Shown one piece after another: positions 14,471 through 34,537 of a stretch of 64,000 bases of DNA; positions within the stretch are counted from its first letter, which is position 1, and the number at the start of each line of letters is the position of its first letter. The notes beneath the pieces are model-generated. The model had not been told where the DNA came from, did not search any database, and was given only the letters and a program-made list of their open reading frames with translations. The position numbers and the translations under genes were made by a program. Origin of the DNA: an uncultured Prevotellaceae bacterium (GTDB taxonomy: Bacteria > Bacteroidota > Bacteroidia > Bacteroidales > Muribaculaceae); assembly GCA_900319525.1 (NCBI GenBank), contig ONOU01000012.1, forward strand, positions 1 to 64,000. Reading direction: 5' to 3'.

Positions 14471-14489
14471 CCCCTCTTCATTATAGGAA

Positions 14490-14530
14490 GCGGGGGCGGC
14501 GCTATCAGTCAGCGTCGTCCCCGGTTTTAT
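14490..14530 (+). terminator. Rho-independent terminator after sbcC
   Basis: A 13-bp GC-rich stem with two G-U pairs, arms at 14490-14503 and 14511-14524, encloses a 7-base loop and is followed by TTTTATTT. It begins 19 bp after the sbcC stop and separates the plus-strand run from the converging DUF4251 gene. Confidence 0.8.
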
Positions 14531-14555
14531 TTACCCAGAATTACGTATTATATGC

Positions 14556-15050: not shown

Positions 15051-15166
15051 AATTTCTTGAGTTTTATCGGGTTAGTAATAAAGAAAAATTTCTATAATTT
15101 AGACTTAATACGTTACAAAAGGTTTAATACCCAATCCTCATTATTTGTCAGTCACAATTCCCCTTT

Positions 15167-15646: not shown

Positions 15647-15666
15647 GACGTTCTGCTTATTGTGGT

Positions 15667-17997
15667 TTAACGGATGACGGCAATCTTGGTCACGACGGCA
15701 TTACCGCTGCCGTTGGCCTGGGAGCAGAAGACGAGATAAACGCCGCTCTTGACGGGCGTACCGTGCTGGTCACAGCAGTCCCAGGTCACCATGCCACCGG
15801 TGGATTTCATCTGCGCCAACACATTGCCGCTGGCATCGGCGATCTTGACCAGCGAATTGTCCATCAAGCCCTTGATGGTGACATCGCCGCCATAATCGGG
15901 GCGCACAGGATTGGGGTAGGCATAGATATTGTCATAAGTGGGCTCGGCAGGGCTGGAGTCGCTGAAGTACTCATACAGGCCGTATGGGGTGGCCACATAG
16001 ACGGAATTGCTGTTGGGATTGCAGCACACCTTGTAAACCGTGTTGCTGGCCAGTGGGCTGTTGGTCGTGTTGAAGTTCCTGATGACCTGCGAGCCATCAC
16101 TATTGACGAGGAACAGACCAGAGGACTGCGTGGCGATCCACTTGCGGTTGGCGCCGTCAACAGCCACGTCGTTGACCTTAATGCCGTCCATGAGGCGGTC
16201 GGCCAGTCCAGTGCCGTCGTTGCGGGGCACCTTGGGCCTGATGACCGAGAATGAGTTCCCGAAAGCCTGGGCGGGATTGAACATGCAGATGCCCTCGCTG
16301 GTACCCATCCAGACCATGCCGTTCAGGTCTTCGGTCAGGCAAACGATATTGGTCCACGACACATTCTGGCCATCCTGGTCAGGCACCCTCGTGAAGGACA
16401 CCTGCTGGGGATGCTCTGAAAGCTCGCCGTTAGAGTTCCAGATCACGATAGGGCTCTCGAAGCTGCCGTCGGTAAAGAGCTTGATGTCGTAGTTGCTGTA
16501 GCGGGTCGAGATGAGGCGGCTACAGAATGTCGAAGCATTGTTGTCAGGCTGGAAGGTGTTCTCGATGACGGGCAGCACCCAGTCGGCTGCCGTGGTCGTG
16601 TTAGACTTCACCTTGGCAGCAGGCAGCACCATGACAGGATGATCCTGGTTCTCATGGGGCTGAACGACCCACACGTTGCCATAGCGGTCAATGCTCGTGA
16701 CCGGGTGAATGGTCCACTTCTTGGCCATGGGACTGTTAGAGGTGTCATAGGCCATCACGATCTCGTTGTCCACCACCTTGAGCAGGCCAAAGAACCAGGT
16801 GCCCATCAGGTAGGTGTTGGGCTCACCCGGCACGAACTCCAGCCAGAAAGAGCCATCTTGCGTGTTGCCTTTCAGCGGCACATCGGGCGGCGTGACGTCG
16901 GTCCACTTCATGCCGTCATAGGTATTCACTATAGTAGGCGTTGACGTGTTGCATATGCCATTGGATGCGGTGCTGGCCACATACAGCTTGCCCTGGTCCT
17001 GATTGTAGGTCATCCAGAAGGGGGTTGCCATCGTCAAGGCGTTGGGCACAAAATAGCTCTCGGAGCCCTGCTCATGCAGGCCCTGCAAGCCCGCAGTCCA
17101 TATCGTGCCGTCACCGTCGGGGTTGGCGCTGCACAGCTCACCGTTGTCACTCACCTGCTCCAGTTCCAGGCCGTCCTCGTTGGCCCTGTAGCATTTACCC
17201 TGATCGGCTACATTGATCAGCAATCCGTCCAACGTGCGCTGCACATCGGTTGCCGGCTTCTCTACGACAGGCTGCGAACTGAAAGTCGCATTACCGTTGT
17301 CGTCAAGAGACATCGTGACACGGAAAGTCTTATCTGCAATGCAGTAGAAGACACTATCATTAATGGGCCAAAAACGGCATTTCTTCTGGAGCGTCTCGGT
17401 CTTGAACGAGGACAGATGTTCATAGAATGTGCCGGCCTCGCCATAGTAGAAGGCCCTGGCCGTGGAAAGGAGCAGCGTCTCCCCCACCTGAGCCACTGAG
17501 CGCAGTGCCTCGCCATACTGGTGCGACTCCTTGACAATCATCTTACTGTCGTCGATGACGACGTAGCCAAAGTCGGTAGCCACATACATCAGTCCGGGAG
17601 CAAAGGTCACATCGTTGATGGTACGGCTCGTCGAGAGCACCGCATCTTTGATTTCGGGCATGTTCACCACGGCGCCACCCGAGGTGATAACGTCGATGTT
17701 GGAGTTGCTGTACACCACCACAACGTAGTCCCTGTCACTGTTGTAGTACACCTTGGAGATGCCCATGTCGCTCAGGTCGTTGATCTTGCTGAGCGCCTCG
17801 TTCTCGCCAGTGGACTTGTCTAGGCGGAACAGATGGGCTCCAGACTGGTAATACACAAACTGGTTACTCTCGATGACTGATGACACGGTATTGCCGGTGA
17901 ACGAGGTGTGAATCATCCAGTCACCCACGGCATTCTGGGCCGTAGCGCATAGCGACATCGCCACTGCCAGCAGGAGTAATATTCTCTTCATTATCAT
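15667..17997 (-). CDS. porZ: PorZ-like type IX secretion propeller protein
   Basis: A 776-residue exported protein with a signal peptide ending near TAQNAVGDW. Two beta-propellers with repeats such as GMVWMGTSEGICMFNP and NDVTFAPGLMYVATDFGYVV are followed by a C-terminal domain opening with AYPNPVRPDYGG and ending TKIAVIR. This matches PorZ, which in Porphyromonas gingivalis sits on the cell surface and delivers anionic LPS to the PorU sortase complex. The C-terminal domain resembles a type A T9SS sorting signal. Of the five family members in the window this one looks most like the PorZ ortholog. The alternative start is ATG 17991. Confidence 0.85.
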   Translation of the reverse strand: MIMKRILLLLAVAMSLCATAQNAVGDWMIHTSFTGNTVSSVIESNQFVYYQSGAHLFRLDKSTGENEALSKINDLSDMGISKVYYNSDRDYVVVVYSNSNIDVITSGGAVVNMPEIKDAVLSTSRTINDVTFAPGLMYVATDFGYVVIDDSKMIVKESHQYGEALRSVAQVGETLLLSTARAFYYGEAGTFYEHLSSFKTETLQKKCRFWPINDSVFYCIADKTFRVTMSLDDNGNATFSSQPVVEKPATDVQRTLDGLLINVADQGKCYRANEDGLELEQVSDNGELCSANPDGDGTIWTAGLQGLHEQGSESYFVPNALTMATPFWMTYNQDQGKLYVASTASNGICNTSTPTIVNTYDGMKWTDVTPPDVPLKGNTQDGSFWLEFVPGEPNTYLMGTWFFGLLKVVDNEIVMAYDTSNSPMAKKWTIHPVTSIDRYGNVWVVQPHENQDHPVMVLPAAKVKSNTTTAADWVLPVIENTFQPDNNASTFCSRLISTRYSNYDIKLFTDGSFESPIVIWNSNGELSEHPQQVSFTRVPDQDGQNVSWTNIVCLTEDLNGMVWMGTSEGICMFNPAQAFGNSFSVIRPKVPRNDGTGLADRLMDGIKVNDVAVDGANRKWIATQSSGLFLVNSDGSQVIRNFNTTNSPLASNTVYKVCCNPNSNSVYVATPYGLYEYFSDSSPAEPTYDNIYAYPNPVRPDYGGDVTIKGLMDNSLVKIADASGNVLAQMKSTGGMVTWDCCDQHGTPVKSGVYLVFCSQANGSGNAVVTKIAVIR

Positions 17998-18103
17998 AAT
18001 TCGTAATTGTGCTTATACTTTAAATAACGTAAAGTCCCCCTCGAAATTGTGTATAAGATCAGGCTTCATCCCACTGCCGGGCTCCCACATGAGGCCAGGG
18101 CGG

Positions 18104-18562
18104 CTAGTAATCGAGGTTGACGCGCTTGGCCTGAGGGGCAGAGGCGTCGAAAGTAAACGTAGCCCAGCGGCTGGTTACCTGGCTCTCGTAGCGGACGCGA
18201 TACTTGATGGGACGCAGGCACTTCACCGCCACCTCCCCCTTGACAGGCAAGAAGGCAGCGCCACGCCGCTTAACCCCTTTTTTCTCGAGGATGTGGCACT
18301 CGTCGCCGCGTATGGTGAACACCAGATTGACGGTCTCCTCGCTACCCAGGGTCAAGCCCTCGCGGGAGATGAGCACACGGCCTCCATCCATCCGTTGCAG
18401 GAGCAGGACGTCCTCGTCGGCCTCCTCGGCGACAGGCGAGGTCTGCAACTGCACAATATAGGTGCTGGCCGGTCCCTTGTCCCTGTGGCCCATGAGCAGT
18501 GCCACCAGTGCCATTGCCACGACAAAGGCCAGGGTGTAGAACTCCGGGCTGTTCAGGTCCAT
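18104..18562 (-). CDS. Membrane-anchored protein of unknown function
   Basis: A 152-residue protein with one N-terminal TM segment (about residues 9-26) and a beta-rich soluble part. No family is recognised. The start is set at ATG 18562, one base after the SGNH gene stop; an upstream start at 18646 would overlap that gene by over 80 bp. The tight spacing makes it part of the MBOAT/SGNH operon, so it may be an accessory part of the acyl-transfer module. Confidence 0.7.
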   Translation of the reverse strand: MDLNSPEFYTLAFVVAMALVALLMGHRDKGPASTYIVQLQTSPVAEEADEDVLLLQRMDGGRVLISREGLTLGSEETVNLVFTIRGDECHILEKKGVKRRGAAFLPVKGEVAVKCLRPIKYRVRYESQVTSRWATFTFDASAPQAKRVNLDY

Positions 18563-18563
18563 A

Positions 18564-19616
18564 TCACTTGAGTTTCTTGATGATTTCGGCCGCGATAAGC
18601 CGCGACGAGGCGGGCGACCAGTGGGTATCGTTAAACAAATAGACATCCTTGACTCCCTGCCCTATGTAGGGACCCAGCACCTGCTTGGAGAAGACAAAGC
18701 GGTCCAGATCGGGTGCCATCCATTGCTGCAGGTCCTCGTTGAGGGTCTTCACTGGATAAGGATTGTCGATGATGTAATTCTGATAAATGTCATACTTGTC
18801 ACTCGCCACGAGCAAAATGAGGTTGACGCCGCGCTGGCGGGCCATGTCGATGAGCTGGCGGTAGCTATCGATGACCAGTTGGCGCTGCCTGGGGGTGACG
18901 TCAAAGCCCAATTCCACGTCCTCACGGTAGAAGTAGAGCACGTCAGGTTCCTGGCCGCCAAATACGGGCCGTGAGAGCCGCACCTTGAAAATCGGGTTAG
19001 CTCCCAGCAAATGATAGAACAGATAGTCCTTGACACGCTGCAGCGGGCCCGGGCCCTCTTGTGGCTGCGCTGTCGTAGCGGCAGGATCAGGTTTCTCGAC
19101 TCTGGGAATCGACGTGTGGGTAGTGACAAAGCCTCCATGCCTGTCCACCAGATAGCGTTCCACCTCTTGCACGACCATGTTGCGCACATGGGTAGAATCC
19201 ACACAACCCAGGTTGAGAATGTCATAGGCGATCTGCACGGGGCTGGACAGCGTGGGGTCCTGGGGCGTGAAGACAGTCACGCGGCGTCCGCCGCCATCAT
19301 GGGCCAGATAGTTCACATAGTCGCCTTGCTTGCCCACACCACCGCCGTGAGAGAACGAGTCGCCGATGACCAGCACATCACAGGTGTCGCGGCGCAGCAG
19401 GCTATCGTCATCCTCGCTGCGGTAATACACTTCGGGCAACAGTCCCGAACGGATGGAGTCGGTGTATTCGGGGCCGCTGTTGATGAGTCCCAGGCGCATC
19501 AGGTCGCCCGAGTTGTCGCCCGTCGCCCACAGGTAAACCGCCATTCCAACGAGGAACAGCCAGACGGGCAACACCGTGTAGGATATGTTGATGAGAAACT
19601 TGCGCATGACGGCCAC
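18564..19616 (-). CDS. SGNH/AlgX-like acyl-transfer protein
   Basis: A protein of about 350 residues with one N-terminal TM segment and a periplasmic SGNH-type domain. The block with the catalytic serine is LVIGDSFSHGGG, and the distal DTHWSPASS near residue 330 supplies the D and H, as in AlgJ/AlgX-type O-acetyltransferases. Such proteins receive an acyl group from an MBOAT partner and place it on a polysaccharide. The GTG at 19616 abuts the MBOAT stop; ATG at 19607 is the other start. The acceptor glycan is not known. Confidence 0.82.
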   Translation of the reverse strand: MAVMRKFLINISYTVLPVWLFLVGMAVYLWATGDNSGDLMRLGLINSGPEYTDSIRSGLLPEVYYRSEDDDSLLRRDTCDVLVIGDSFSHGGGVGKQGDYVNYLAHDGGGRRVTVFTPQDPTLSSPVQIAYDILNLGCVDSTHVRNMVVQEVERYLVDRHGGFVTTHTSIPRVEKPDPAATTAQPQEGPGPLQRVKDYLFYHLLGANPIFKVRLSRPVFGGQEPDVLYFYREDVELGFDVTPRQRQLVIDSYRQLIDMARQRGVNLILLVASDKYDIYQNYIIDNPYPVKTLNEDLQQWMAPDLDRFVFSKQVLGPYIGQGVKDVYLFNDTHWSPASSRLIAAEIIKKLK

Positions 19617-21062
19617 CTAGAATTGGAAATAAATAAACGTCTGCACCTTGCCGGCAAAGTAGAAAATGAGCAGTACCAACAAGGCATACAAGGCCAAGCG
19701 CGCCGGGCGGGCCGACAACAGGCGATAGCCATCGATCTGCAACACATGCTGGCGCTCGCGCTGTATCCACTCGACCAGCAGCAGCGCGGCACACCACAGG
19801 AGCATCGTGGCCATCTTCATCGTCAAGCCGTGATAATTGAACAGCGATGGCGAGAACAGGCGCGACACATACTCGGTGAAGGCGGCAAAGTCGGGCGCAC
19901 GGAACAGAATCCAGCCGAAGTTGATCAGCAGGAACGTGACCACCATGCTCACCGTCTCACGCCACGTGGGCAACAGCCGGCCATGGGCCACGGTATCCTT
20001 GTAGCGCTGCGAGCCCAGCACGATGAGCGGGATAAAGAGCAAGGCATGGTACAGTCCCCACAGAACAAAGGTCCAGTCGGCGCCATGCCACAAGCCGCTG
20101 AGTGCAAAAACAATCAGCGTATTCAGGATAGTACGGCCACGGGAAGAACGGCTACCGCCCAAAGGGAAATAGACATACTGGGTGAACCAGCCCATCAGGG
20201 TGATGTGCCAGCGGCGCCAAAATTCACGCACGTTGCGCGAGAAATAGGGCACCCTGAAGTTGGTCGTCAACTTGATGCCGAAGAGCTTGGCGCAACCGAT
20301 GGCGATATCACTGTAGCCCGAAAAATCGGCATAAATCTGGAACGTGAACAGCAGTGAGCACACCATGAGCATCATTCCCGTGGCCGAGCCCAGGCCGTTC
20401 CACGTCTGATTCACCACCTCGGCACAGCCGTCGGCGATAATGAGTTTCTTAAAGAATCCCCACAGCATCTGGCGCAGGCCGTCCACCGCCTGGCAATAGT
20501 CAAATCGGCGCGGTGCGAGCATCTGGGGCAACAAGCTGGTCGCGCGCTCGATGGGGCCAGCCACAAGCTGCGGGAAGAAGCTGATGAACGAGAAGAAGGC
20601 CACCGCGTCACGCGTGGGTTCAATCCTGCGGGCATACACGTCGATCGAGTAGCTCAACGCCTGGAAGGTGTAGAAACTGATGCCCACCGGCAAAATGATG
20701 TTGAGCGTGGGCCAGTCGGCCGCAATGCCTATCGACGACAACAGCACCTGCAAGCTGGTGGCAAAGAAGTTGAAATACTTGAACGTTGCCAGGATGCCCA
20801 AGTTGAGCACAATGTTACAGATGCTCACGAGACGCTGCCATCGACGGCGCCCTTCAAAACGCTGGATGAGCAGGCCACTGGCGTAACTGCTCAATGACGT
20901 GATGACGATGAGGATGAGGAAACGCCAGTCCCACCAGCCATAAAAGACATAACTGGCTACCAGGATGAGCAGATTCTGCCACCGCAACCGCTTGAAGACA
21001 AACCAGTAGAGCAGGAACACTACTGGTAAGAAAATCATGAATGTGAACGAGTTGAATAGCAA
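19617..21062 (-). CDS. MBOAT family membrane O-acyltransferase (AlgI-like)
   Basis: A 481-residue polytopic protein with the MBOAT blocks near the N-terminus (SYVFYGWWDWRFL), in the middle (GPIERATSLLPQ) and around the catalytic histidine in LSGLWHGADWTF. AlgI and its relatives move acetyl groups across the inner membrane for O-acetylation of exopolysaccharide, LPS or peptidoglycan. The gene is fused by position to the SGNH gene, the usual two-part system. It is the first gene of this small operon and lies just downstream of a PorZ-like gene. Confidence 0.92.
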   Translation of the reverse strand: MLFNSFTFMIFLPVVFLLYWFVFKRLRWQNLLILVASYVFYGWWDWRFLILIVITSLSSYASGLLIQRFEGRRRWQRLVSICNIVLNLGILATFKYFNFFATSLQVLLSSIGIAADWPTLNIILPVGISFYTFQALSYSIDVYARRIEPTRDAVAFFSFISFFPQLVAGPIERATSLLPQMLAPRRFDYCQAVDGLRQMLWGFFKKLIIADGCAEVVNQTWNGLGSATGMMLMVCSLLFTFQIYADFSGYSDIAIGCAKLFGIKLTTNFRVPYFSRNVREFWRRWHITLMGWFTQYVYFPLGGSRSSRGRTILNTLIVFALSGLWHGADWTFVLWGLYHALLFIPLIVLGSQRYKDTVAHGRLLPTWRETVSMVVTFLLINFGWILFRAPDFAAFTEYVSRLFSPSLFNYHGLTMKMATMLLWCAALLLVEWIQRERQHVLQIDGYRLLSARPARLALYALLVLLIFYFAGKVQTFIYFQF

Positions 21063-21148
21063 CGGACGTTTCTCTCCTTTTTATTTAAGTTTCTCAAGCA
21101 GATAACCTGCTCACTGTTTAATGATCGCAAGCATGATGGCTTGCCGGT

Positions 21149-23500
21149 TTACTTAATAATCATTATTGTCGCCAGGGGCGTGCCCGTAACGTCGGGCTGT
21201 CCACCCTGGGCGGCATGGATGTAGTAGGTGCCTGTGGCGACACGCTCGCCATCCTCGCCACTGCCGTCCCACAGGGCGCTGCCCGTGACAGGGCCCAGCT
21301 GGGTCACGACGTTACCCTCACGATCGGTGACGGTGACAAACGAGTCTTGCATCAGTCCCGTGATCTTGATATATCCCGTGAAGTCAGGCTCCACAGGGTT
21401 GGGGAAGGCGTAAACGCCATCAAAGTTGAGCGCTGCGGTGCCACCCTCGGCAACATACTCGGCAAAGCCATTGTCGGTGAACACATATACACGCTCGTTG
21501 ACCGTGTCACACTCCACCGAAAAGACCTCATCGCTGGGCAAGTCGCTGTTCTTCGTCGTGAAGTGGCTATACACCTCACTGCCGTCGGGCGAGACGAAAT
21601 ACACGCCGTCGTCTGTTGCCAGCCACTTGTTGTTGTCGCGGTCAACACCCACGTCATAGACACTATAGCCCTCGCACAAGAGGCCCCTGCACTCCTTGCC
21701 ATCGGAGGACTTGGTAACGGAGGGGCGCATGGCTCGGGGCTGCTCGTCAAAGACCACTTCCGGGTCAAACACAAAGACACCCTTGGTGTGTCCCACCCAG
21801 ATGTTGCCGTCCTTATCCTCCTCCATGTGGTTGACATAGGTCCACTCCACCAGGCGGCCGTTCTGGTCAATGAAACGGTTGATTTGCGCCAAATGGTAAT
21901 TGTCGATGGTGGGATCGACCTCTCCGTTATCCCAGAAGAACAGCTCTCCCCTACCCGCCTTGTCGGGATAATCGCCATCGATAAACATCTTGACGTTATT
22001 CTTCTTGCTCACCAGCAGACGCGAACGCTGCATCTTGCCTGTGGTCAGGCTGGAAAATCCCGTGGGGACAAACCAGTCGGCCTTGGTGGCCGTAGCCTTG
22101 GCAAAATCCTCAGCCTTGAGTACCGAGACAGGGTTTGCCGCTGCATTATAGGAGCTCACCACCCACAGGTTGCCATATTTGTCAAAAGCGGGTGTGGGCT
22201 TGATACTGCCGATTTTGGCATTGGAGCTGGTGTAGGTCGTCACGAGTGTATTGTTAGTCACCTTGTGGATACCCTTGTTCCAGCTGGCGCGAACGTAGGT
22301 CGTGGGATCCAGCGGGTTGAATTCAAAGGCATAGCCCGCGCCAGCTGCGGTATAGGCCGTAGCATTGCGCCACTGCGCGCCGTCATAGGTATTGATGACA
22401 TTAGTAAATGAGGTCGAATTGTTGTTGATCAAGGCGATGGGGCCTGACACTGCCGCATAGAGCAGATCCATCGCCGCATTGTACTTGAGCCAATAGGGCT
22501 GGTCGGTGCTTATTGAATTGACCTTATAGTAGGCTGTCGAGCCACTGACGTGCAGGCCATTGGCATCGAGGAGCCACAATGTGCCGTCGCCATTGGGGTA
22601 GGACGAAGCGAAGGTGATGGCCGAGCCCTGCTTGGTAGCCGTGGTGGCCGTCTCGTTGATGGTGTAATAATAGGACAGGCCGATGAAGTTGGCGATGTAA
22701 CCCGTGGAGGACTTCTGCACGCTGGTGGGGCATACGGCGATCAAACTGGTCAGTGTGGGCGTGCCCGACGAGAAGTCATAGCGGTAGAGATGGGCGTTGC
22801 TCATCACAAAGGTGGACTGGTCGTTAATCGGGTACATCTTGGCTCCGGTGAACGTGCCGGAGGCCTTGGCATAGGTGTTGATGGGATCATTCGCATCGGG
22901 GTCGCCGTAGTAGCAAGTGCTGTTGGAGAGAATCAACAGCTTGTCGCCCACCTTGGCTACCGAATTGACACACACATTAGTACGCATTGCCACGCTCCTG
23001 ATGACCGAGAAGGTGGACTCGTCGATCACAGCAAATCCATAACCCATTGCCACGTAGGCCTTCCCGTCGGCAAACGTAATGTCACGGATTGACTTGTCCA
23101 CATAGGCGCTCAATTCTCCATCGGTGAGCGTGGCATTGTGGACTGTAGTCAGCACATCCTTGATACCGTTGATGTTGGTCACCACGCCGTCGGCATCTAT
23201 CACGTCGATGTTACTGCTGGCGTAGGCAACAAACAGCAGGTTGTTCTCACAGTCGTAGTAGATCTGCGAAACCTGGTTGTCCGACAAGTTATTCTGGCGA
23301 TTCAGCGCCACGGTGGTCATCGTGGCCTTGTCAAACACGAACAAGCGGCTACTGTTCATGTAGTACACCTTTTCGCCCGTGTCATAGATGTTCTGAATCT
23401 TCGCGGTCATGAAATAGTTGTGAATCTTCCATGTGCTTGCGCTGGCGGTAGCGACAGCCATCACCATGAGCAAGAGGAAAACTAATTGTCTTTTTACCAT
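21149..23500 (-). CDS. PorZ-like propeller protein, paralog 2
   Basis: A 783-residue protein with signal peptide and mature start near STWKIHNYF. It carries the same domain order as PorZ: N-terminal propeller, second propeller with GNIWVGHTKGVFVFDP and NKWLATDDGVYFVS, and a C-terminal domain opening with AFPNPVEPDFTG. It shares the segment LDPTTYVRASW with the next three genes, so it belongs to their subgroup more than to the porZ gene at 15667. The start is ATG 23500; a longer frame from 23542 would spoil the signal peptide. The function is inferred from the family only. Confidence 0.85.
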   Translation of the reverse strand: MVKRQLVFLLLMVMAVATASASTWKIHNYFMTAKIQNIYDTGEKVYYMNSSRLFVFDKATMTTVALNRQNNLSDNQVSQIYYDCENNLLFVAYASSNIDVIDADGVVTNINGIKDVLTTVHNATLTDGELSAYVDKSIRDITFADGKAYVAMGYGFAVIDESTFSVIRSVAMRTNVCVNSVAKVGDKLLILSNSTCYYGDPDANDPINTYAKASGTFTGAKMYPINDQSTFVMSNAHLYRYDFSSGTPTLTSLIAVCPTSVQKSSTGYIANFIGLSYYYTINETATTATKQGSAITFASSYPNGDGTLWLLDANGLHVSGSTAYYKVNSISTDQPYWLKYNAAMDLLYAAVSGPIALINNNSTSFTNVINTYDGAQWRNATAYTAAGAGYAFEFNPLDPTTYVRASWNKGIHKVTNNTLVTTYTSSNAKIGSIKPTPAFDKYGNLWVVSSYNAAANPVSVLKAEDFAKATATKADWFVPTGFSSLTTGKMQRSRLLVSKKNNVKMFIDGDYPDKAGRGELFFWDNGEVDPTIDNYHLAQINRFIDQNGRLVEWTYVNHMEEDKDGNIWVGHTKGVFVFDPEVVFDEQPRAMRPSVTKSSDGKECRGLLCEGYSVYDVGVDRDNNKWLATDDGVYFVSPDGSEVYSHFTTKNSDLPSDEVFSVECDTVNERVYVFTDNGFAEYVAEGGTAALNFDGVYAFPNPVEPDFTGYIKITGLMQDSFVTVTDREGNVVTQLGPVTGSALWDGSGEDGERVATGTYYIHAAQGGQPDVTGTPLATIMIIK

Positions 23501-23598
23501 AACGCTTTTAATTTTATCGTTTCTTTCCTTGCAAGTCAACACATTGATTTACAGTAGATTGAACCACAAAAGCAAGTACAACCCACTGGATTAAATGC

Positions 23599-23606
23599 CA
23601 AAGTTA
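23599..23606 (-). promoter_or_regulatory. Candidate -7 box upstream of PorZ-like paralog 2
   Basis: TAACTTTG on the minus strand matches TAnnTTTG and would give a leader of roughly 90 nt. No TTG stands 23 to 25 bases further upstream, so support is partial. Confidence 0.4.
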
Positions 23607-23699
23607 TAAAATAAAGCCGAGAAAATGCCTTTTTTATTCGCAGGAACCCTCTATAATATTTCTTAAAAATTGCAAAAGCAACAGCCACTATATCCATTT

Positions 23700-24073
23700 A
23701 TTGTTGTCCGGGAAAAGCCCCGCTAGGGGCGGCTAGGTCATAGGCAGGGGTGTAACGAGGCGAAGCCGAGTGAAACCCCTGTGGGTGGTTTAAAAAGATG
23801 TCCAAGCCCCATCGGGGCGGCAGTAAGTTACTGATGCTGAGCCTGTTGCCCCAATGGGGCTAAATATCAGGTGGGAGCCGACACGATGCAGGGGTTCCGT
23901 TTGGCTTCGCCTCACTCCACCGCCTGCCTATGACCTGAACAGCCCTAACGGGCTTCAGATGCGGCCACGGCGGCTACAACAGGCTACGGGTAGCCTTTTA
24001 TCCAGAAACCACATTCAACATGTTGTCAATCTGTCTATTGAAACACATCTCTTGATTTTCCCCGGACAGCAAT
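23700..24073. mobile_element. Nested-palindrome element, about 374 bp
   Basis: Outer inverted repeats ATTGTTGTCCGGGAAAA (23700-23716) and TTTTCCCCGGACAGCAAT (24056-24073) bound the block. Inside, three pairs nest: AGGTCATAGGCAGG (23735-23748) with its perfect complement at 23923-23936, GAGGCGAAGCC (23757-23767) with its complement at 23903-23913, and short GCCCC hairpins between them. No coding sequence is convincing. The form suggests a non-autonomous mobile element or a structured RNA. A related TATTATTGTCCGGGGAAAG occurs at 57313-57331. Confidence 0.65.
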
Positions 24074-24188
24074 GATATCCATTTGGCCTCACGCCAAAGA
24101 CGCCAAGACGCCAAGTTTCCCAATCACTTAAACGACAGGGCTTGACAGCCAAAAACAACTCAGCGGAAAATTAGTGGGGATGAGCCCC

Positions 24189-24236
24189 AAAAACATCCCT
24201 TCCAGGAGGAAGTGTCGGCTTCCTGGAAGGGATGTT
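24189..24236 (-). terminator. Terminator after PorZ-like paralog 3
   Basis: A perfect 16-bp stem (24192-24207 with 24221-24236) around a 13-base loop lies 23 bp beyond the stop of the gene at 24260. On the minus strand the stem runs into five Ts (24193-24189). Confidence 0.7.
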
Positions 24237-24259
24237 GTAGGGTCTGGTCAAAGGGGGGG

Positions 24260-26611
24260 TTACCTGATGACCTTGACTGTCGCCTGGGGGGTGCCTGTGG
24301 TCGTGGGCCAACTTCCCTGGGCGGCATGGATATTGTAAATGCCTGTGGCGACACGCACGCCATCCTCGCCACTGCCGTCCCACAGTGCACTTCCCGTCAC
24401 AGGACCCATGCGGTTCACCTCATGACCCTCGCGATCGGTGATGATGACATAGGTGTTCTCCATCAGATTGGCGATCTTGACATAACCAGTGAAATCAGGC
24501 TCCACAGGATCGGGGAAGGCATACACGTCATCGAAGCTCAGTGCGGCAGCGTCGCCCTCGGCAATGAACTCGGCAAAGCCATTATCGGTGAACACATACA
24601 CGCGGTCGTTGACCGTGTCACACTCTATCGAGTAAACGATGTTGCTGGGCAGGTCGCTGCCTTCAGAGGTGAAGTGGTTATACACCTCGCTGCCATCTGG
24701 TGATATATAGTACACGCCGTCGTCGGTGGCCAGCCACTTGTTGTTCTCGCGGTCAACACCGACGTCATACACATTGTAGCCCTCGCAAAGGGTTCCCTTA
24801 CCCTCGGTAGACTTGGTGACAAAGGGTCGTATAGCCCTGGGCTGTTCGTCGGTGACCACGAGGGGGTCAAACATGAACACGCCCTGGGTGTGACCAACCC
24901 AGATGTTACCGGCATTGTCCTGCTCCAGGTGGTTAATATAAGTCCATTCCACCTGGCGGTTGTTCTGATCGATGAAGGTGTTGATCTGGTATAAGGTGTA
25001 GGTTCCTGCCGTGGGGTCCACCAGCCCGTTGTCCCAACACAAAATGTCGTGCTTGCCTTTGGGTCCAATATCACCGTCACAATAAATCTTCATGTTGTTC
25101 TTGCGGGCCACCAGGAAACAAGTGCGCTGCATCGATTCGGGCGATGCCACACTGAGCAGGCCACTGGGCTGGAACCAGTCGGATTTGGTCGCTGTTGTCT
25201 TGGCAAACTTGTCGGCGGGCAGCACCACGACAGGCATGGATGCGTTACCGTAGGAACAAACCACCCACAGGTTACCATAGATATCAAATGCTGGTGTGGG
25301 CTTGTAGTTGCCAATCTTGGCATTAGTGCTGAGGTAGTTGGTTTTCAAGACATTGTTAGTCACCTTAAAGAGCCCCCTGCTCCAGCTGGCGCGAACATAG
25401 GTCGTGGGATCCAGCGGACTGAACTCAAAGGCATAGCCGGCACCGGGTGCGGCATAGGCCGTGGCGTTGGTCCAGGTGCTGCCATTATAGGTATTGATAA
25501 CATTTTCTGCTGTCATCGAGTTGTTGTTCATGCCCTGAATGGGCCCCGAGAGACCTGCATACAAGCGATTCATCGCCGCATTGTACTTGAGCCAATGGGG
25601 CAGGTCGGTCGTCAATGCATTCATCTTATAATAGACGGTGGAGCCGCTCTTGTGCAGGCCATTGGCATCATTGATCCACACGGTGCCGTCACCATGCGGC
25701 CACGCCGTGGCAAATCCTGCCGTGGTGCCCTGCTTGGTAGCGGTGCGGCCGGTGGCGTCGATGGTATAATAGTAGGCCTGACCGGCAAAGTTGGCAATGA
25801 AGCCGGTGGGCGACTTCTGTACGCACGTGGGCAAAGCGTTCACCAGTGTGGTCATCGCGGGTGAGCTGGACGAGAAGTCGTAGTAGTACAGCTTGGAATT
25901 ACTCATCAGGAAGGCCGAGTGGTCATTGATGGGATACAGCTTGCCCCCCGTGAAGGTGCCGCTCTTCTTGGCATAGGTATTAACAGGATCATCGGCATCG
26001 GGGTCGCCATAGTAGGTGTAGCCGTTGGTCAGGAATACCAGGCGGTTGCCCACCTTTGCCACCGAGTTGACGCACATCGAGCTGGGCACAGCAACGTCCT
26101 TAATGATGGAGAACGTTGACTCGTCAATCACAGCATAGCCATAGCCCATGGCGACGTAGGCCTTGCCATCGGCAAAAGTGATGTCGCGGATGTTCTTGCC
26201 CTCATAGGTTTTCAAGCCCGTTCCATTTTCATCATCAAACGTGTACACGTGCACCGTTGATGTGGCATCCTTGACGCGGTTGACATTCTTCACATTACCG
26301 TTAGCGTCAATCACGTCGATATTGCTGCTGGCATAAGCGACAAACAACAACCGGTTCTCCCAGTCATAGTAAATCTGCGAGATCTGGTTGTCGGACAACT
26401 TGTTCTGGCGGTTCAAGGCCACCGTGGTCGATGTCGCCTTGTCGAACTGGAACAAGCGGTCACTGTTCAGATAGTAGATCTTGTCACCAGTATCAAACAC
26501 GTTCTTAATGTTGCCAGCCACATAGTAGTTGTGGATCTTCCAGGTGCTCGCGCTGGCAATGGCCGAGGCCAGTACCATGAGCAGCAGGAAAACTAATTGT
26601 TTTTTTCTCAT
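24260..26611 (-). CDS. PorZ-like propeller protein, paralog 3
   Basis: A 783-residue exported protein with a signal peptide ending near ASAS. It has the PorZ layout with GNIWVGHTQGVFMFDP, a NKWLATDDGVYYIS repeat, and a C-terminal domain opening with AFPDPVEPDFTG, where the usual N of PNP is D. That change at the sorting-like domain start may alter recognition, if the domain is used. It is preceded by paralog 4 with 75 bp between, and followed by a terminator and by the nested-palindrome element. Confidence 0.85.
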   Translation of the reverse strand: MRKKQLVFLLLMVLASAIASASTWKIHNYYVAGNIKNVFDTGDKIYYLNSDRLFQFDKATSTTVALNRQNKLSDNQISQIYYDWENRLLFVAYASSNIDVIDANGNVKNVNRVKDATSTVHVYTFDDENGTGLKTYEGKNIRDITFADGKAYVAMGYGYAVIDESTFSIIKDVAVPSSMCVNSVAKVGNRLVFLTNGYTYYGDPDADDPVNTYAKKSGTFTGGKLYPINDHSAFLMSNSKLYYYDFSSSSPAMTTLVNALPTCVQKSPTGFIANFAGQAYYYTIDATGRTATKQGTTAGFATAWPHGDGTVWINDANGLHKSGSTVYYKMNALTTDLPHWLKYNAAMNRLYAGLSGPIQGMNNNSMTAENVINTYNGSTWTNATAYAAPGAGYAFEFSPLDPTTYVRASWSRGLFKVTNNVLKTNYLSTNAKIGNYKPTPAFDIYGNLWVVCSYGNASMPVVVLPADKFAKTTATKSDWFQPSGLLSVASPESMQRTCFLVARKNNMKIYCDGDIGPKGKHDILCWDNGLVDPTAGTYTLYQINTFIDQNNRQVEWTYINHLEQDNAGNIWVGHTQGVFMFDPLVVTDEQPRAIRPFVTKSTEGKGTLCEGYNVYDVGVDRENNKWLATDDGVYYISPDGSEVYNHFTSEGSDLPSNIVYSIECDTVNDRVYVFTDNGFAEFIAEGDAAALSFDDVYAFPDPVEPDFTGYVKIANLMENTYVIITDREGHEVNRMGPVTGSALWDGSGEDGVRVATGIYNIHAAQGSWPTTTGTPQATVKVIR

Positions 26612-26686
26612 ATCGCGTACATTTATTATTCTATTCTTTACGGGTCAGCAGTTGCAGAACAATCACATGGCCTGATTCCCCCTTGA

Positions 26687-29044
26687 TCACCTGATGATCA
26701 GGACGGACATCAACGGAGCACCGGTCAATGCGGGTTGGCTGCCCTGCGCCGCATAAATATTATAGATACCCGTGGGCACACGCTGGCCATCGCTATAGCA
26801 AGCATCCCACAGGGCACTACCCATCACGGGACCCATCTGTGCCACGATGTGACCCTCGTTATCGGTGATGGTGACATAGGTGTCATCCATCAGGTTAGCC
26901 ATCTTGATCAAGCCAGTGAAATCAGGCTCCACGGGATTGGGATAAACATAGGCGCCATCAAAGTTGAGCGCGGCAGCGTCACCCTCGGCGACATACTCGG
27001 CAAAGCCATTGTCGGTATAGACATACACGCGGTCACCTACGGTATCACATTCTACCGAATAGACCATGTTGCCGGGCAGGTCGCTGTTGTAGGTCGTGAA
27101 GTGATTATAGACCTCACTGCCATCGGGCGAAACAAAATACACGCCATCGTCGGTAGCGAGCCACTTGTTGTTATCGCGGTCCACGCCGATGTCATAGACA
27201 CCACAGCCCTCACATAAAGTGCCACGGCCCTCGGCAGAACTGGACACGAAGGGACGCACACCACGAGGCAACTCGTCAAAAACCACATCGGGGTCGAACA
27301 TGAACAAGCCCTGAGTGTGCCCCACCCAGACGTTGCCGTCCTTATCCTGCTCCATGTGATTGACATAAGTCCAATCAATCTGACGGTCGTTCTGATCCAC
27401 AAAACGGGTAATCGTGGAAATGCGGTAATTGTCAACAGCAGGATCGGTCACGCCATTATCCCAGCAGAAGAAGGCACCCTTAACACCGCTCTCGGGGAAC
27501 TCGCCGTCGATAAAGATTTTATAGTTATTCTTCTTGCTCACCAGGAAGCGTGAGCGCTGGATGCTGCCGGTGTAGATGCTCTGCAAACCAGCCGGAGCAA
27601 TCCAATCGGCCCTGGAAGCCGTTGTCTTGGCAAACTTGGCCGCTGGCAGCACAGCTACCGAGGGAATATTCTGTTCCATCTCAGTCTTCGAGAAATAAGA
27701 GCAGACGACCCACAGGTTGCCATAGTTGTCAAACGTCGGCGTCGGCTTCGTGCCTCCAATCTTTGCATTAGCCTTGGTATAGGTCGTTTTCAACACGCCA
27801 TCGGTCACCTTGTGAATACCCTTGTTCCAGCTGGCGCGCACATAGGTGGTAGGATCCAGGGGGCTGAATTCAAAGCCATAGGCGCCACTGGCAGCAGCAT
27901 AGGCCGTCGCATCGGCCCAGTTATGGCCATCATAGGTATTAATGGCGTTGGTAACATCGGTCGCAGGACTGATGCCGTAGATCGCGCCCGTGTTGGCAAC
28001 ATACAAGAGGCCGGTCGTCGCATTGTACTTGAGCCAATAAGGCTGGTCGGTCGTCAAGGAATTGACCTTGTAGCTGGTGCTCGACCCTTTCATGTGCAGA
28101 CCCGTGGCATCATTGATCCACTCGGTACCGTCACCATTAGGATCGGCAGTGGCAAAGCCCTCAGCACTGCCTTGCTTGGTTGCGACCAGTCCCGCAGCAT
28201 CGATAGTGTAATAGTAGGATTGCTTGGCAAAGTTAGCGATGAAGCCTGTCGGGGTCTTCTGGACACAGGTCGGTGCCTCATTGATGAGCACCTTGGCTGT
28301 GGGAGAAGCCGTCGAGAAATCATAGTTGACGAGTTTGGAGTTGCCTAACATCAACAACGAGTGGTCATTAACTGGAAACAACTTGGCATCAGTAAACGTG
28401 CCGCTACGCTTGGCATAGGTGTTGATGGGATCATCGGCATCGGGGTCACCGTAATAAAGGTATTTGTTAGACGCGATAACCAGGTTCTCACCGATCCTGG
28501 CGACAGAGTTCACGCAGATTGTATTCAGCACCTCCACATCCCTGATAATCGTGAACGTAGCCTCATCAACAACGGCATAACCATAACCCATCGCCACGTA
28601 GGCCTTTCCATCACCAAAGGTTATGTCACGGATGGTCTTATCCACATAATCCGTCAGTTCCCCCTTGGTAAGTGTGTAGTCATGCACTCTGGCGACCACG
28701 TCCTTGATGCCGGCAATGTTCCTCACGTTGCCAGCTGCATCGATAACGTCAATGTTGGAGTTAGCGTAGGCCACAAACAAGAGCCGGCTCTCCCAGTCAT
28801 AGTAAATCTGGGAAATCTGGTTGTCGGACAACATGTTCTGGCGGTTCAATGGCACGGTGGTCAATGTGGTCTTGTCAAACTGGAACAAGCGGTTGCTGTT
28901 CAGGTAGTAGATTTTGTCGCCTGTATCAAGCACATTCTGAATGTTTCCCGCAACATAATAGTTGTGAATCTTCCATGTGCTGGCGGCGCCTGTGGCAACT
29001 GCCAGAACAAGGAGCAGAAGGAGCACTAAATGTTTCTTTGTCAT
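26687..29044 (-). CDS. PorZ-like propeller protein, paralog 4
   Basis: A 785-residue exported protein, signal peptide ending near ATGAAS. Domain order is as in the other paralogs, with GNVWVGHTQGLFMFDP and a C-terminal domain opening with VYPNPVEPDFTG. The segment before the end reads WDACYSDGQRVP, unlike the WDGSGEDG form in paralogs 2 and 3. The sequence between the start and about residue 110 is close to paralogs 2, 3 and 5, which suggests fairly recent duplication or gene conversion. Confidence 0.85.
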   Translation of the reverse strand: MTKKHLVLLLLLVLAVATGAASTWKIHNYYVAGNIQNVLDTGDKIYYLNSNRLFQFDKTTLTTVPLNRQNMLSDNQISQIYYDWESRLLFVAYANSNIDVIDAAGNVRNIAGIKDVVARVHDYTLTKGELTDYVDKTIRDITFGDGKAYVAMGYGYAVVDEATFTIIRDVEVLNTICVNSVARIGENLVIASNKYLYYGDPDADDPINTYAKRSGTFTDAKLFPVNDHSLLMLGNSKLVNYDFSTASPTAKVLINEAPTCVQKTPTGFIANFAKQSYYYTIDAAGLVATKQGSAEGFATADPNGDGTEWINDATGLHMKGSSTSYKVNSLTTDQPYWLKYNATTGLLYVANTGAIYGISPATDVTNAINTYDGHNWADATAYAAASGAYGFEFSPLDPTTYVRASWNKGIHKVTDGVLKTTYTKANAKIGGTKPTPTFDNYGNLWVVCSYFSKTEMEQNIPSVAVLPAAKFAKTTASRADWIAPAGLQSIYTGSIQRSRFLVSKKNNYKIFIDGEFPESGVKGAFFCWDNGVTDPAVDNYRISTITRFVDQNDRQIDWTYVNHMEQDKDGNVWVGHTQGLFMFDPDVVFDELPRGVRPFVSSSAEGRGTLCEGCGVYDIGVDRDNNKWLATDDGVYFVSPDGSEVYNHFTTYNSDLPGNMVYSVECDTVGDRVYVYTDNGFAEYVAEGDAAALNFDGAYVYPNPVEPDFTGLIKMANLMDDTYVTITDNEGHIVAQMGPVMGSALWDACYSDGQRVPTGIYNIYAAQGSQPALTGAPLMSVLIIR

Positions 29045-29226
29045 ATCGCGTTGTTATTTTACAGTCCAGGTTATTCAATACAATGATTCACAGGGAGATA
29101 AATAAGGAAAACACCTTATTACCCTCTGAATCAAACCCTAAAATTATAAAATAAAAACGGAAAAACGCGATTTTCACCCCACAATCGGGCAAAAATTATC
29201 TTAAAAATTGCTAAAGCGATACATTC

Positions 29227-31587
29227 TCACCTAATAATCATGATGGTCGCCTGAGGCTCTCCGGCCACCGCAGGCCAGCCGCCCTGGGCAGTATAAATAT
29301 TATAAGTGCCTGTGGGCAGCCGCTCGCCATCGGTCCCGGCGCCATCCCACAGCGCACGCCCCTTCACGGGTCCCAGCTGAGCCACCACCGTCCCCTCTCG
29401 GTTGGTGATGGTGACAAATGAATTATCCATCAGATGATCGATTTTCACATAGCCGGTATAATCGGGCTCAACGGGGTTGGGGATCGCTACCACATTATTA
29501 AAATCAAGAGTCGGCGCGTCGCCTTGAGGGACATACTCGGCAAAACCACTTCCCGTGTAGATGTAAACCCGTTCATTGACCGTATCACACTCGATGGAAT
29601 AAACCATGTTATCAGGCAGGTCGCTGTTGGCGGTCGTGAAATGGTGATAAATCTCGGAGCCGTCAGGTGAAGTGTAAAAGACACCATCATCGGTGGCAAG
29701 CCACTTGTTGTCTGCGCGGTCCACACCGATGTCATAAACGTTAGAGCCCTCACACAGATAGCCCCTGCTATCGCTGGGCTGAGTCACGAAGGGACGAATC
29801 GCCCTGGGCCGCTCTTCAAACACGCTATCGGGGTCAAACATGAACAGACCACTGGAGTGGCCGACCCAGATGTTGCCGCTCTTGTCCTGCTCGATGTGAT
29901 TGACATAGGTCCATGTCAATTGATGATCATCCTGATCAATGAAATAGGTCACAGCGGCAAGGTGATAAGTATCAATCTTGGGATCCACCTCACCATTGTC
30001 CCAACAGAAGAAAGTGGCATTGCCCGGCGAGGTGGGGAAGTCGCCGTCAATAAAGATCTTGACATTGTTCTTCTTGCTCACCAGGAAGCGAGAACGTTGC
30101 ATGTTACCCGTACGCAGCCTCGATAATCCAGTGGGCTCAAACCAGTCGTTCTTGGTCACTATGGCCTTAGCAAACTTGTCGGCAGGGAGCACAGCGACAG
30201 GCGGTATTGTCCCGACCTCGGTACTCGACAAGTAGGAACTGACAACCCACAGGTTGCCATAATTGTCAAATGCAGGAGTGGGCTTCGTTCCGCCAATCTT
30301 TGAAGAAGCTTTGGTATAGGTCACCTTGAGCTCATCGTTGGTCACCTTGTGGATACCTCTGTTCCAACTGGCACGCACATAGGTCGTGGGATCCAACGGG
30401 CTGAACTCAAACGCATAAGCGCCTCCAGCGGCTCTATAGGCCGTCGCGTCGGTCCATTGCGAGCCGTCATAGGTGTTGATGACATTGGCCTCGGAGACCG
30501 AGTTGTTGTTGATCAACGCAATGGGGCCCGACACGGCCGCATAGAGCTTGTCCATGGCCGCGTTGTACTTGAGCCAATAGGGTTTGTCGGTCGTCAAGGC
30601 GTTGTTCTTGTAACAAATCGTTGAACCGCTGATGTGCAAGCCATCGGCATCGTTGATCCATACTGTGCCGTCGCCATTGGGATCTGATGTGGCAAAACCT
30701 GGCGTCGTCCCTTGCTGGGTAGCCGTCAGGCCTGTGGCGTCGATGGTATAATAATAGGACTCGCCGGCAAAATTGGCAATGTAGCCCGTCGGGCTCTTCT
30801 GGACGCAAGTGGGCAAGGCATTCACGACTCTCGTTAATGCGGGCGTAGCCACCGAGAAGTCATAATAATAGAGCCTTGAGTTAGTCATGATGAAAGTCGA
30901 GTGATCATCGATGGGATACATGCGCGCATCGGTGAATGTACCGCTCCTCACCTTGTAAGTGTTGATGGGATCATCGGCATCAGGATCGCCATAGTAGGTG
31001 TTCCTGTTGGAAACAATCACCAGATCATCACCAATCCTGGCAACAGAGTTGACACAGATGGTATTGCGCACCTCCACCGTACGGACAATGGTTAATGTCG
31101 CCTCATCGATGATCGCAAAGCCGCAACCCATAGCAACATAAGCCTTGCCACCCGCAAAGGTGATATCGCGGATTTCTTTACCCACATATTCAGTCAACAC
31201 GCCGGCTTCAAGGGTAAAGTCATGCACCATCACATTCATGTCCTTGATGCCGCTGATGTTGGTCACCTTGCCGCTGCTGGCATCGATCACGTCGATGTTA
31301 CTGTTGGCATAGGCGACAAAGAGCAAGCGGTTTTCCCAGTCGTAGTATATCTGCGAAATCTGATTATCGAACAACCGGTTCTGGAAGTTGATGGGCACGA
31401 TGGCTTTGGTTTCCTTGTCAAACTGATACAGGCAATTGCTGTTCAGGAAATAAATCTTCTCGCCTGTATCGTAGACATTCTGGATATTGTCAGCCACATA
31501 GTAATCGTGCAATTGCCATGTGACAGCGCGGGCCATGCTAACCGTCATTGACAAGAACGCCAATAATAACAATACTCGCTTTGCCAT
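29227..31587 (-). CDS. PorZ-like propeller protein, paralog 5
   Basis: A 786-residue exported protein whose signal peptide is MAKRVLLLLAFLSMTVSMA. The start is ATG 31587, as upstream in-frame codons from 31698 would add a non-signal N-terminus and overlap lysS. It has GNIWVGHSSGLFMFDP and a C-terminal domain opening with AIPNPVEPDYTG. It is the gene nearest lysS, 71 bp after it, and could be read through from the lysS transcript. Function is inferred from PorZ only. Confidence 0.85.
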   Translation of the reverse strand: MAKRVLLLLAFLSMTVSMARAVTWQLHDYYVADNIQNVYDTGEKIYFLNSNCLYQFDKETKAIVPINFQNRLFDNQISQIYYDWENRLLFVAYANSNIDVIDASSGKVTNISGIKDMNVMVHDFTLEAGVLTEYVGKEIRDITFAGGKAYVAMGCGFAIIDEATLTIVRTVEVRNTICVNSVARIGDDLVIVSNRNTYYGDPDADDPINTYKVRSGTFTDARMYPIDDHSTFIMTNSRLYYYDFSVATPALTRVVNALPTCVQKSPTGYIANFAGESYYYTIDATGLTATQQGTTPGFATSDPNGDGTVWINDADGLHISGSTICYKNNALTTDKPYWLKYNAAMDKLYAAVSGPIALINNNSVSEANVINTYDGSQWTDATAYRAAGGAYAFEFSPLDPTTYVRASWNRGIHKVTNDELKVTYTKASSKIGGTKPTPAFDNYGNLWVVSSYLSSTEVGTIPPVAVLPADKFAKAIVTKNDWFEPTGLSRLRTGNMQRSRFLVSKKNNVKIFIDGDFPTSPGNATFFCWDNGEVDPKIDTYHLAAVTYFIDQDDHQLTWTYVNHIEQDKSGNIWVGHSSGLFMFDPDSVFEERPRAIRPFVTQPSDSRGYLCEGSNVYDIGVDRADNKWLATDDGVFYTSPDGSEIYHHFTTANSDLPDNMVYSIECDTVNERVYIYTGSGFAEYVPQGDAPTLDFNNVVAIPNPVEPDYTGYVKIDHLMDNSFVTITNREGTVVAQLGPVKGRALWDGAGTDGERLPTGTYNIYTAQGGWPAVAGEPQATIMIIR

Positions 31588-31658
31588 ATCTCGTAAATTT
31601 AAGAATTTTCTCTTGTTTTCTGATAAATGCCGGTCAGCCAACCCGCGCCCGGGAAAAT

Positions 31659-33407
31659 TTACTGCTCGGCAGTTGCCGCAGCAGCACACTCTACCCACTT
31701 CTTGACCTCGTCAACAACAGGCACTTTGTAACCTAACTTATACTTCTTGTTGATGTCAAGCAAATCCTGGAAAAGCTTACCCGGTTTTTCCAGAGCGCCG
31801 AGTGCGGCAACCGTCAGGAAACCAGCCTTCTGGATAGGTGCAACCCACTCCTCGGGAATGCCCAGTGCGGTGAATGCCTCGACCTTGTCACGGGCAGGCA
31901 CCTTCTCGGGGCGCATCTGCGGGAACAGGAGCACATCCTGGATGTAGCTGTTGCCCGTCATGAGCATCACAAGGCGGTCGATGCCGATGCCGATGCCGCT
32001 CGTGGGAGGCATGCCGTATTGCAGGGCGCGCAGGAAGTCCTGATCAATAATCATCGCCTCGTCGTCACCCTTGTCGGCCAGACGCATCTGCTCCTTGAAT
32101 CGTTCCTCCTGGTCGATGGGGTCGTTGAGCTCGCTGTAAGCATTGGCCAGCTCCTTACCGTTGACCATGAGCTCAAAGCGCTCGGTCAGGCCAGGCTTGC
32201 TGCGGTGCATCTTGGTGAGCGGGGACATCTCAACGGGATAGTCGATGATGAAGGTGGGCTGGATGAAAGTGCCCTCACAGAACTCACCGAAGATCTCATC
32301 AATCAGCTTGCCCTTACCCATCGTGTCGTCGATCTCGAGTTTCAGAGCCTTGCACACCTCGCGGATCTCGTCTTCGGTCTTTCCCTCCAGGTCATAGCCC
32401 GTCTTCTCCTTGATGGCCTCAAGGATGGGCAAGCGGCGGTAAGGCGCCTTGAAACTGATAACCTGACCATCGATCTCGGTCTCGGGCTTGCCGTTGACAG
32501 CGGTGCAGATGGTCTCGAGCAGGCGCTCGGTAAACGACATCATCCAGTTATAATCCTTGTATTGAACGTAGAGCTCCATGCATGTGAACTCGGGATTGTG
32601 GTTGCGGTCCATACCCTCGTTGCGGAAGTTCTTGCCAATCTCGTACACGCCCTCAAAGCCGCCCACGATGAGTCGCTTCAAGTAGAGCTCGGTAGCGATG
32701 CGCATATACATCTGTATATTCAACGCATTGAAATGGGTAATGAATGGACGAGCGGTAGCGCCACCGGCAATAGCCTGCAAGGTGGGCGTCTCGACCTCGG
32801 TATATCCGGCATCGTCGAGCACCTGGCGCATGGTCTTCACGACCAAAGCACGCTTCAGGAAGGTCTCTTTCACACCCTTGTTAACCACCAGATCGACATA
32901 ACGCTGGCGATAGCGCATCTCGGGATCCTCAAAGGCGTCATACGTCACACCGTCCTTCTCCTTGACAACGGGCAGCGGCTTCAACGACTTGCTCAACAGC
33001 TTGAGCGACTGGGCATGAACGCTGATTTCGCCCGTCTGGGTACGGAAGACGTAACCCTCAACACCGACAAAGTCACCCATGTCGAGCAACTTCTTGAACA
33101 CGGAGTTATACAGTTCCTTGTCCTCGCCGGGGCACAGGTCGTCACGGCTCACATAGACCTGCACGCGGCCCTTAGAGTCCTGCAATTCAAAGAAGGAGGC
33201 CTTGCCCATGATGCGGCGGTTCATCATGCGTCCGGCAATGCTCACTTGACGAGGCTCGGCATCGTCTTTGAAATTGGCCACGATGTCGTCACTATATGCA
33301 TTCACAACATACTCTGCGGCGGGATACGGGTTAATGCCCATGGCCTTGAGTGTCTCCAGACTGTTGCGGCGGATAATCTCTTGTTCGCTTAATTCAAGTA
33401 CATTCAT
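31659..33407 (-). CDS. lysS: Lysyl-tRNA synthetase, class II
   Basis: A 582-residue class II synthetase. The OB-fold anticodon-binding domain occupies roughly residues 55-170. Motif 2 is [15 protein letters not shown] and motif 3 [14 protein letters not shown]. It is longer than the E. coli enzyme (about 505) because of an extra C-terminal tail of about 75 residues after motif 3, a form known in Bacteroidetes. It charges tRNA-Lys with lysine. A likely promoter lies at 33455-33462. Confidence 0.97.
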
Positions 33408-33454
33408 GTTTACCCTAATATGTATTTTTTAAGATGATGTTTGTTTTTAAACTG

Positions 33455-33502: not shown

Positions 33503-34513
33503 TCACTTGTGCGCCCGCTTGTAGCCTTTGCCAAGAAGGAAGGGAAGATAACGCTCGACAATGATGGCGAGGGGGTAAAGCACAGCCATGACGACGAGTG
33601 CGATGACAACTTTAAAGAGGATACTGTCGTCGAGCACATCGGGGCCCAACAACCGGGCAGCAGCAATCTTGATGATGCCGATCAGGTAGTTCTGCAACGC
33701 GAGATAAGTGATGCCCGTGATGGCGACAGTCTGGGCCACTGGGCTGGTACCATGCATGCGCTCCAACCACTTGCACACGGCAGTGTAGAAGGGCAGCACC
33801 AGGATGACTGCCTCAGGAGCCAGGACATAGGCCACGGCCCGGTCAATGTTCAATGGCGCGGCAATGAGAAAACCGAGTCCTGCCACTGCCAGCGCAATCC
33901 ACAACAGTGAACGTGCAGGAGTGGCAAAATCAAACTTCTCTACCAACGGACGGCAGCAGTTGCCAAAAGCATAGATAGGCATATACAGGAAAGCCTTATC
34001 AAGGTTCCAATAGCGGAACCAGGGCACATCGGGCATGACGAGCAGCCCCAGGCTGAGCAACAGCGCCACCACCAGCGGCCAATAACCGGATAAATACCGT
34101 TTTATCGGGTAATAGATGACCTGCATCGTGAACAGGGCCGCCAAGAACCAGAATGGCCCTAACACGACATCGGGCGTTCCCTGAACGAACTGCCAGACGG
34201 GTGCGAGCACATCAATGGCCTGCTCCTCGGGGCCTGCCATGCGGCGACCTACAACGAGCCACAAGGCATAGAAGATGATGAAGAAAGTGGTGTAAGGCAC
34301 CAGAATCTGGCGGGCGCGATGGCGCAGGAAAGTGAGAAAATTCTGCTGCCTGGCAATGTTGAACAGATAGCCTGCCGCAAAGAAAAACACTGGCGCACCC
34401 ATGTTGAACAATGCCGCCTCACGGGCATTGTCATAGCGCGGTGGTGTGTGGTAAATGACCACTAGCGTCATCGCTATCAACTTGATGTAGTCGAGCCAGG
34501 CTTGTCTCTTCAT
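33503..34513 (-). CDS. Acyltransferase family 3 membrane protein
   Basis: A 336-residue polytopic protein of the OafA/NodX acyltransferase 3 family. It begins RQAWLDYIKLIAMTLVVIYHT, which contains the conserved histidine of the first TM region, followed by GAPVFFFAAGYL. Relatives acylate sugars in O-antigen or other envelope glycans, or amino-acid side groups. The start is ATG 34513; a longer frame from 34534 reaches into the upstream inverted repeat. It follows serS by 114 bp and precedes lysS by 95 bp. Confidence 0.85.
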   Translation of the reverse strand: MKRQAWLDYIKLIAMTLVVIYHTPPRYDNAREAALFNMGAPVFFFAAGYLFNIARQQNFLTFLRHRARQILVPYTTFFIIFYALWLVVGRRMAGPEEQAIDVLAPVWQFVQGTPDVVLGPFWFLAALFTMQVIYYPIKRYLSGYWPLVVALLLSLGLLVMPDVPWFRYWNLDKAFLYMPIYAFGNCCRPLVEKFDFATPARSLLWIALAVAGLGFLIAAPLNIDRAVAYVLAPEAVILVLPFYTAVCKWLERMHGTSPVAQTVAITGITYLALQNYLIGIIKIAAARLLGPDVLDDSILFKVVIALVVMAVLYPLAIIVERYLPFLLGKGYKRAHK

Positions 34514-34537
34514 TTCCTCTCTATCAGCTATCAAAAA

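Follow-up and report, generated by a model that had tools for sequence, protein, structure and literature searches.

The window analysed here, a stretch of 64,000 nucleotides from an uncultured Prevotellaceae bacterium (assembly GCA_900319525.1, contig ONOU01000012.1, positions 1 to 64,000 of the forward strand), carries a locus in which genes for PorZ-type components of the attachment complex of the type IX secretion system (T9SS) are multiplied, and PorU-type sortases stand in tandem on another contig of the same genome. In a relative of this gut bacterium, PorZ brings secreted proteins their lipid anchor. The multiplication of both components suggests, without proving it, that a single cell carries several alternative anchoring machines. 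In particular, we give an even chance to the reading that the PorZ and PorU paralogs are alternative attachment modules that have one PorV and one PorQ in common; the ligands, which PorU goes with which PorZ, the docking and how cargo is divided are what we infer.

The five PorZ-like genes claimed for this locus in an initial annotation are confirmed, as one porZ and four intact paralogs (Table 1) that are 64-68% identical to each other and 32-34% identical to the genome's own PorZ. Their identification as PorZ holds as well, since 5 of 5 proteins exceed the curated NCBIfam cut-off (NF052228, 260 bits); no other PorZ-type genes were seen in this genome, which is 94.5% complete. The match to the PorZ structure of Porphyromonas gingivalis (PDB 5m11) spans most of the length, and the N-terminal propeller domain and the C-terminal domain (CTD) are shared. 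The first propeller is seen by Pfam, and the second through the 5m11 match alone. Sensor-type propellers (3v9f, 4a2l) were rejected, as their matches are local and weaker than that to 5m11. The PorZ-like CTD that had been proposed is indeed there, with GxY in 62 of 62 paralogs, a terminal K/R in 61 and the P(N/D)P motif in 55, and Pfam FlgD_ig and CHU_C match this region solely below their own cut-offs. Within the paralog subfamily, the CTD (0.68) and the stretch before it (0.65) are conserved best, as compared with 0.54-0.56 elsewhere. What distinguishes the window paralogs from P. gingivalis PorZ is that they form four tandem copies, with a promoter-like element of their own and a linked O-acyltransferase pair. 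The further suggestion that they are variant PorZ receptors is plausible and unproven, and it gains genomic support from the array of the partner, PorU.

PorU, searched for as the known partner of PorZ, exceeds its profile cut-off (NF033707, 420 bits) in all 24 genomes tried. On contig C31 of the window's genome (L140, that is, G000:C31:44000-63999, 2813-18754; genomes, contigs and loci carry our own numbers, prefixed G, C and L), the canonical PorU, at 920.6 bits, is followed by two small genes and then by three paralogs in tandem, at 678-698 bits. Relative to the first of them, the other two show 74% and 68% identity. All three match the PorU sortase (PDB 6za2) over nearly the full length with Cys and His kept, and their identity to the canonical PorU of this genome is about 31%. 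A putative catalytic His, that of the GHA motif, and a Cys lying 34 residues after it, taken as catalytic by position and without alignment to 6za2, occur in 78 of 78 PorU paralogs and in a fraction of 0.97 of 39 canonical PorU proteins (those of 1000 amino acids or fewer left out), and the one paralog searched contains the C25 domain (PF01364, E 6e-79). A Cys/His dyad and C690 have been reported for P. gingivalis PorU (PMC10202324, PMC5562754). NCBIfam names another PorU-type protein, the putative second sortase PorU2 (NF052324), but the three paralogs do not qualify as such, since their scores of 92-97 bits lie below its cut-off of 450. G264 has a second canonical-type PorU (L198, 2800-6231, + strand) 1.3 kb from porZ, with 58% identity to its canonical one, and extra canonical-type copies are also present in G256 and G410. 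Since adjacent full-length PorU pairs occur in other families of the order too (G449, G483 and G507, for example, among the matches listed), duplication of PorU alone is not special.

The copy numbers of the two arrays are correlated. PorZ is nearly universal in the family, which is probably Muribaculaceae, with a match in 393 of 397 genomes, and the paralog subfamily is found in 40 of the 101 genomes of the genus (matches of at least 900 bits, the other matches listed being far weaker). A GTDB scan with narrow peptide patterns returned 31 loci, whose titles name metagenome bins or uncultured Bacteroidales, Muribaculaceae, Prevotellaceae or Porphyromonadaceae and, where a host site is given, ruminants. 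Copy number ranges from 1 to 5 between species, and the number of PorZ paralogs correlates with that of PorU paralogs (Spearman 0.78 in 39 of the 40 subfamily genomes, the window's included; 0.72 among the 24 with a completeness of 90% or more). Independent contrasts give r 0.575 (38 contrasts, p 1.3e-4), and neither count tracks genome size or completeness. In these comparisons PorZ copies were counted from proteins instead of the family profile; PorZ of 700 amino acids or fewer, PorU of 800 or fewer and one partial PorU of G256 were left out; two broken PorZ pieces in G242 were taken together as one copy, and a PorU of G402 that lies in two overlapping stretches was counted once; the porZ of G316 is present as two open reading frames; and G361 (88% complete, 190 contigs), in which no PorU-paralog array was found, was excluded. 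A genome of another family has two PorZ-like matches next to each other (G415:C20:213696-217293), an indication that PorZ duplication may extend beyond the genus.

In a tree with outside PorZ proteins (the window's genome and 9 further subfamily genomes, 6 other genomes of the genus, 15 of 30 porZ loci fetched from other genera, and 23 of 29 from a search of the order), the paralogs come out as the derived form within a second PorZ lineage that the genus has, and the single PorZ of G331 falls on their side with a support of 92. Gene trees built from 21 of the 40 subfamily genomes contain three clades, A, B and C, each with expanded arrays of both PorZ and PorU, and four species of clade C have kept three PorZ and two PorU paralogs in one-to-one correspondence. 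Purifying selection acts on the copies, as dN/dS is 0.05-0.14 across 14 ortholog pairs (paralog genes in 10 cases) and 0.11-0.25 for four within-genome paralog pairs.

While PorU and PorZ are multiplied, exactly two PorV-family proteins exceed the cut-off in each of 16 genomes, and in the window's genome as well; which is PorV and which is PorQ we assign from scores. This would fit exchangeable modules on shared anchors. In P. gingivalis, PorU:PorV and PorZ:PorQ are approximately 1:1 sub-complexes that join into the attachment complex (PMC5562754), and the CTD of PorZ is described as retained to bind PorQ (PMC10202324). What is more, P. gingivalis PorZ binds anionic lipopolysaccharide (A-LPS) via phosphorylated mannan and, once loaded, binds PorU more strongly; the A-LPS of P. 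gingivalis is not bound by the PorZ of T. forsythia (PMC8545088). In the mechanism we propose, PorZ and PorU paralogs would pair into alternative modules that dock on the single PorV and the single PorQ. The glycolipid that a PorZ paralog presents to its partner PorU would differ from one paralog to the next, either as a distinct surface glycolipid or as a differently O-acylated version of one, and this PorU would cleave the CTD of the cargo and join the presented glycolipid to it. The O-acylation would be supplied by an adjacent pair of an MBOAT and an AlgX-like protein.

MBOAT/SGNH O-acyltransferase pairs are known as AlgI with AlgJ/AlgX and as DltB with DltD, and the pair in the window is alike in combining an MBOAT with an AlgX-like protein with the expected motifs. 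Compared with DltB, however, the window MBOAT scores 157 bits, under the equivalog cut-off of 375, and it is linked to PorZ paralogs. In 26 of the 40 subfamily genomes (the window's and 25 others) a PorZ paralog has the close pair directly after it, and the single PorZ of G331 also has one behind it. In eight of the 26 (G193, G217, G232, G272, G283, G328, G333, G343) porZ is on another contig or about 25 kb away and the pair stays with the paralog, which argues for linkage to the paralog and not to porZ, within the limits that contig breaks in draft bins set on such separation. One MBOAT gene, 60% identical to the window's, directly follows the PorU array of G040 (L270, 14214-15653, + strand), the sole case in the PorU-locus stretches scanned. 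A bipartite promoter-like element precedes a PorZ paralog in 40 of 40 subfamily genomes. All 44 complete elements found in 1.43 Mb of fetched loci stand before a PorZ paralog, and none away from one; the first block alone recurs at 9 further sites with up to 3 mismatches.

That said, several observations weigh against the module reading. The MBOAT is absent from the locus in 14 of the 40 genomes, among them the one with the most copies (G313), the pair is missing there in clades B and C, and the MBOATs elsewhere in those 14 genomes are all about 60% identical or less. An MBOAT partner in every subfamily genome is thus ruled out, and an acylated ligand cannot apply to all members unless the ligand changed. 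Copy numbers are not 1:1, with two PorZ and four PorU paralogs in G256 and G403, and one and three in G280. Expansion events are few: on the tree, having at least three PorZ paralogs requires 5 changes and at least two PorU paralogs 4, and a test of independent pairs gave about 2 pairs for, 0 against and 2 without difference (median p 0.5). The spacing of the PorU and PorZ arrays is not large throughout, being about 35 kb in G212; it is 110-130 kb in G164 and G377, and about 0.8 Mb in G173, the only single-contig assembly looked at, which is without the subfamily. A promoter common to PorZ and PorU paralogs was sought and none found, the best scores of 73 being at the level of shuffled sequence. 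Finally, recognised T9SS cargo is sparse (8 TIGR04183 matches in the window's genome), and across 30 of the 32 genomes searched its number gives rho 0.01 with PorU paralogs and 0.29 (p 0.12) with PorZ paralogs. Cargo load as the driver of expansion accordingly finds no correlation, although TIGR04183 may miss diverged CTDs.

Could the extra PorZ and PorU simply do the canonical job and raise the capacity of the attachment complex? The joint rise of the two components would fit such a dosage effect, as would the possible excess of PorV in the P. gingivalis complex (PMC5562754). We nevertheless regard it as unlikely: the paralogs have diverged from the genome's PorZ and canonical PorU to the low identities given above, orthologous copies are kept apart in the four species of clade C, PorU number does not follow recognised cargo number, and PorV/PorQ-type proteins do not rise with the rest.

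Alternatively, the PorZ paralogs may have departed from the attachment complex and become T9SS cargo themselves, that is, surface lectins with a PorZ fold and a CTD that bind outside polysaccharides. The retained CTD, the promoter-like element of their own, the separation from porZ in eight genomes and the ruminant hosts named in titles are all compatible with this. We hold it to be similarly unlikely, given that PorU is multiplied in the same genomes, that a membrane acyltransferase pair is among the neighbours of the paralogs, and that no polysaccharide-degrading gene was recognised among the listed neighbours, not all of which were searched against families. Very improbable, in our opinion, is that the arrays provide surface-antigen variants which pressure from phages, predators or the host maintains, the copies switching or recombining with one another. 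While copy number does vary from 1 to 5, and G164 and G385 each have one copy in the opposite orientation to porZ, window paralogs share identical runs of 28 nucleotides at most, leaving no sign of recent gene conversion; what is more, orthologs are under strong purifying selection, and PorU, an enzyme, varies in step.

Table 1. Features of the PorZ locus and its surroundings (positions in the window).
Feature	Position	Strand	Evidence and remarks
Two DUF4251 genes in tandem	14556-15050 + 15167-15646	-	PF14059 E 1.8e-22 and 6.3e-33; downstream of porZ; context
porZ (canonical)	15667..17997	-	NF052228 441.7 bits; 5m11 E 1.3e-52
Small protein, ~150 amino acids	18104..18571	-	single N-terminal hydrophobic stretch; recurrent at these loci
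AlgX-like SGNH-type protein	18564..19616	-	PF16822 E 5.4e-8; GDSFS and DTHW motifs; behind MBOAT gene
MBOAT gene	19617..21062	-	PF03062 E 1.3e-26; histidine motifs present
PorZ paralog	21149..23500	-	NF052228 314.4 bits; promoter-like element upstream
Bipartite promoter-like element	23597..23675	-	upstream of paralog 21149..23500; conserved in subfamily genomes
PorZ paralog	24260..26611	-	NF052228 283.9 bits
PorZ paralog	26687..29044	-	NF052228 295.6 bits; 5m11 E 3.3e-36; promoter-like element upstream
Bipartite promoter-like element	29137..29213	-	upstream of paralog 26687..29044
PorZ paralog	29227..31587	-	NF052228 299.1 bits
lysS	31659..33407	-	adjoins array; named from sequence, without family search; context
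Acyltransferase-3 family protein	33503..34534	-	PF01757 E 5.3e-23; context

The small protein in Table 1 has no match in Pfam or NCBIfam at E 0.01, and its relatives occur in 40 of the 81 loci L141-L221, a set that includes PorU and PorV loci; DUF4251-like genes occur in 29-30 of the same loci. An Rfam scan of positions 14000-34000 returned nothing at gathering scores. Elsewhere in the window, a 16-bp sequence is present twice at 528-596, with starts 53 bp apart.

In the literature searched, no title and no beginning of an abstract is on the subject of multiplied PorU or PorZ. A review describes as open how PorU chooses effectors for release or for attachment (PMC10202324). This question becomes testable with natural variants in genomes where sortase and glycolipid carrier have multiplied and the PorV/PorQ-type barrels have not, and the same genomes suggest a candidate for the acyltransferase that acts on the anchor. 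Going further, one may picture one translocon with one PorV and one PorQ serving several PorU/PorZ pairs, each of which would ligate its own class of cargo to its own O-acylated glycolipid, the cell in this way sorting its surface proteins by anchor chemistry, a picture that we consider possible but doubtful. Gram-positive bacteria have several dedicated sortases, and sorting by anchor chemistry, if true, would be a parallel to them.
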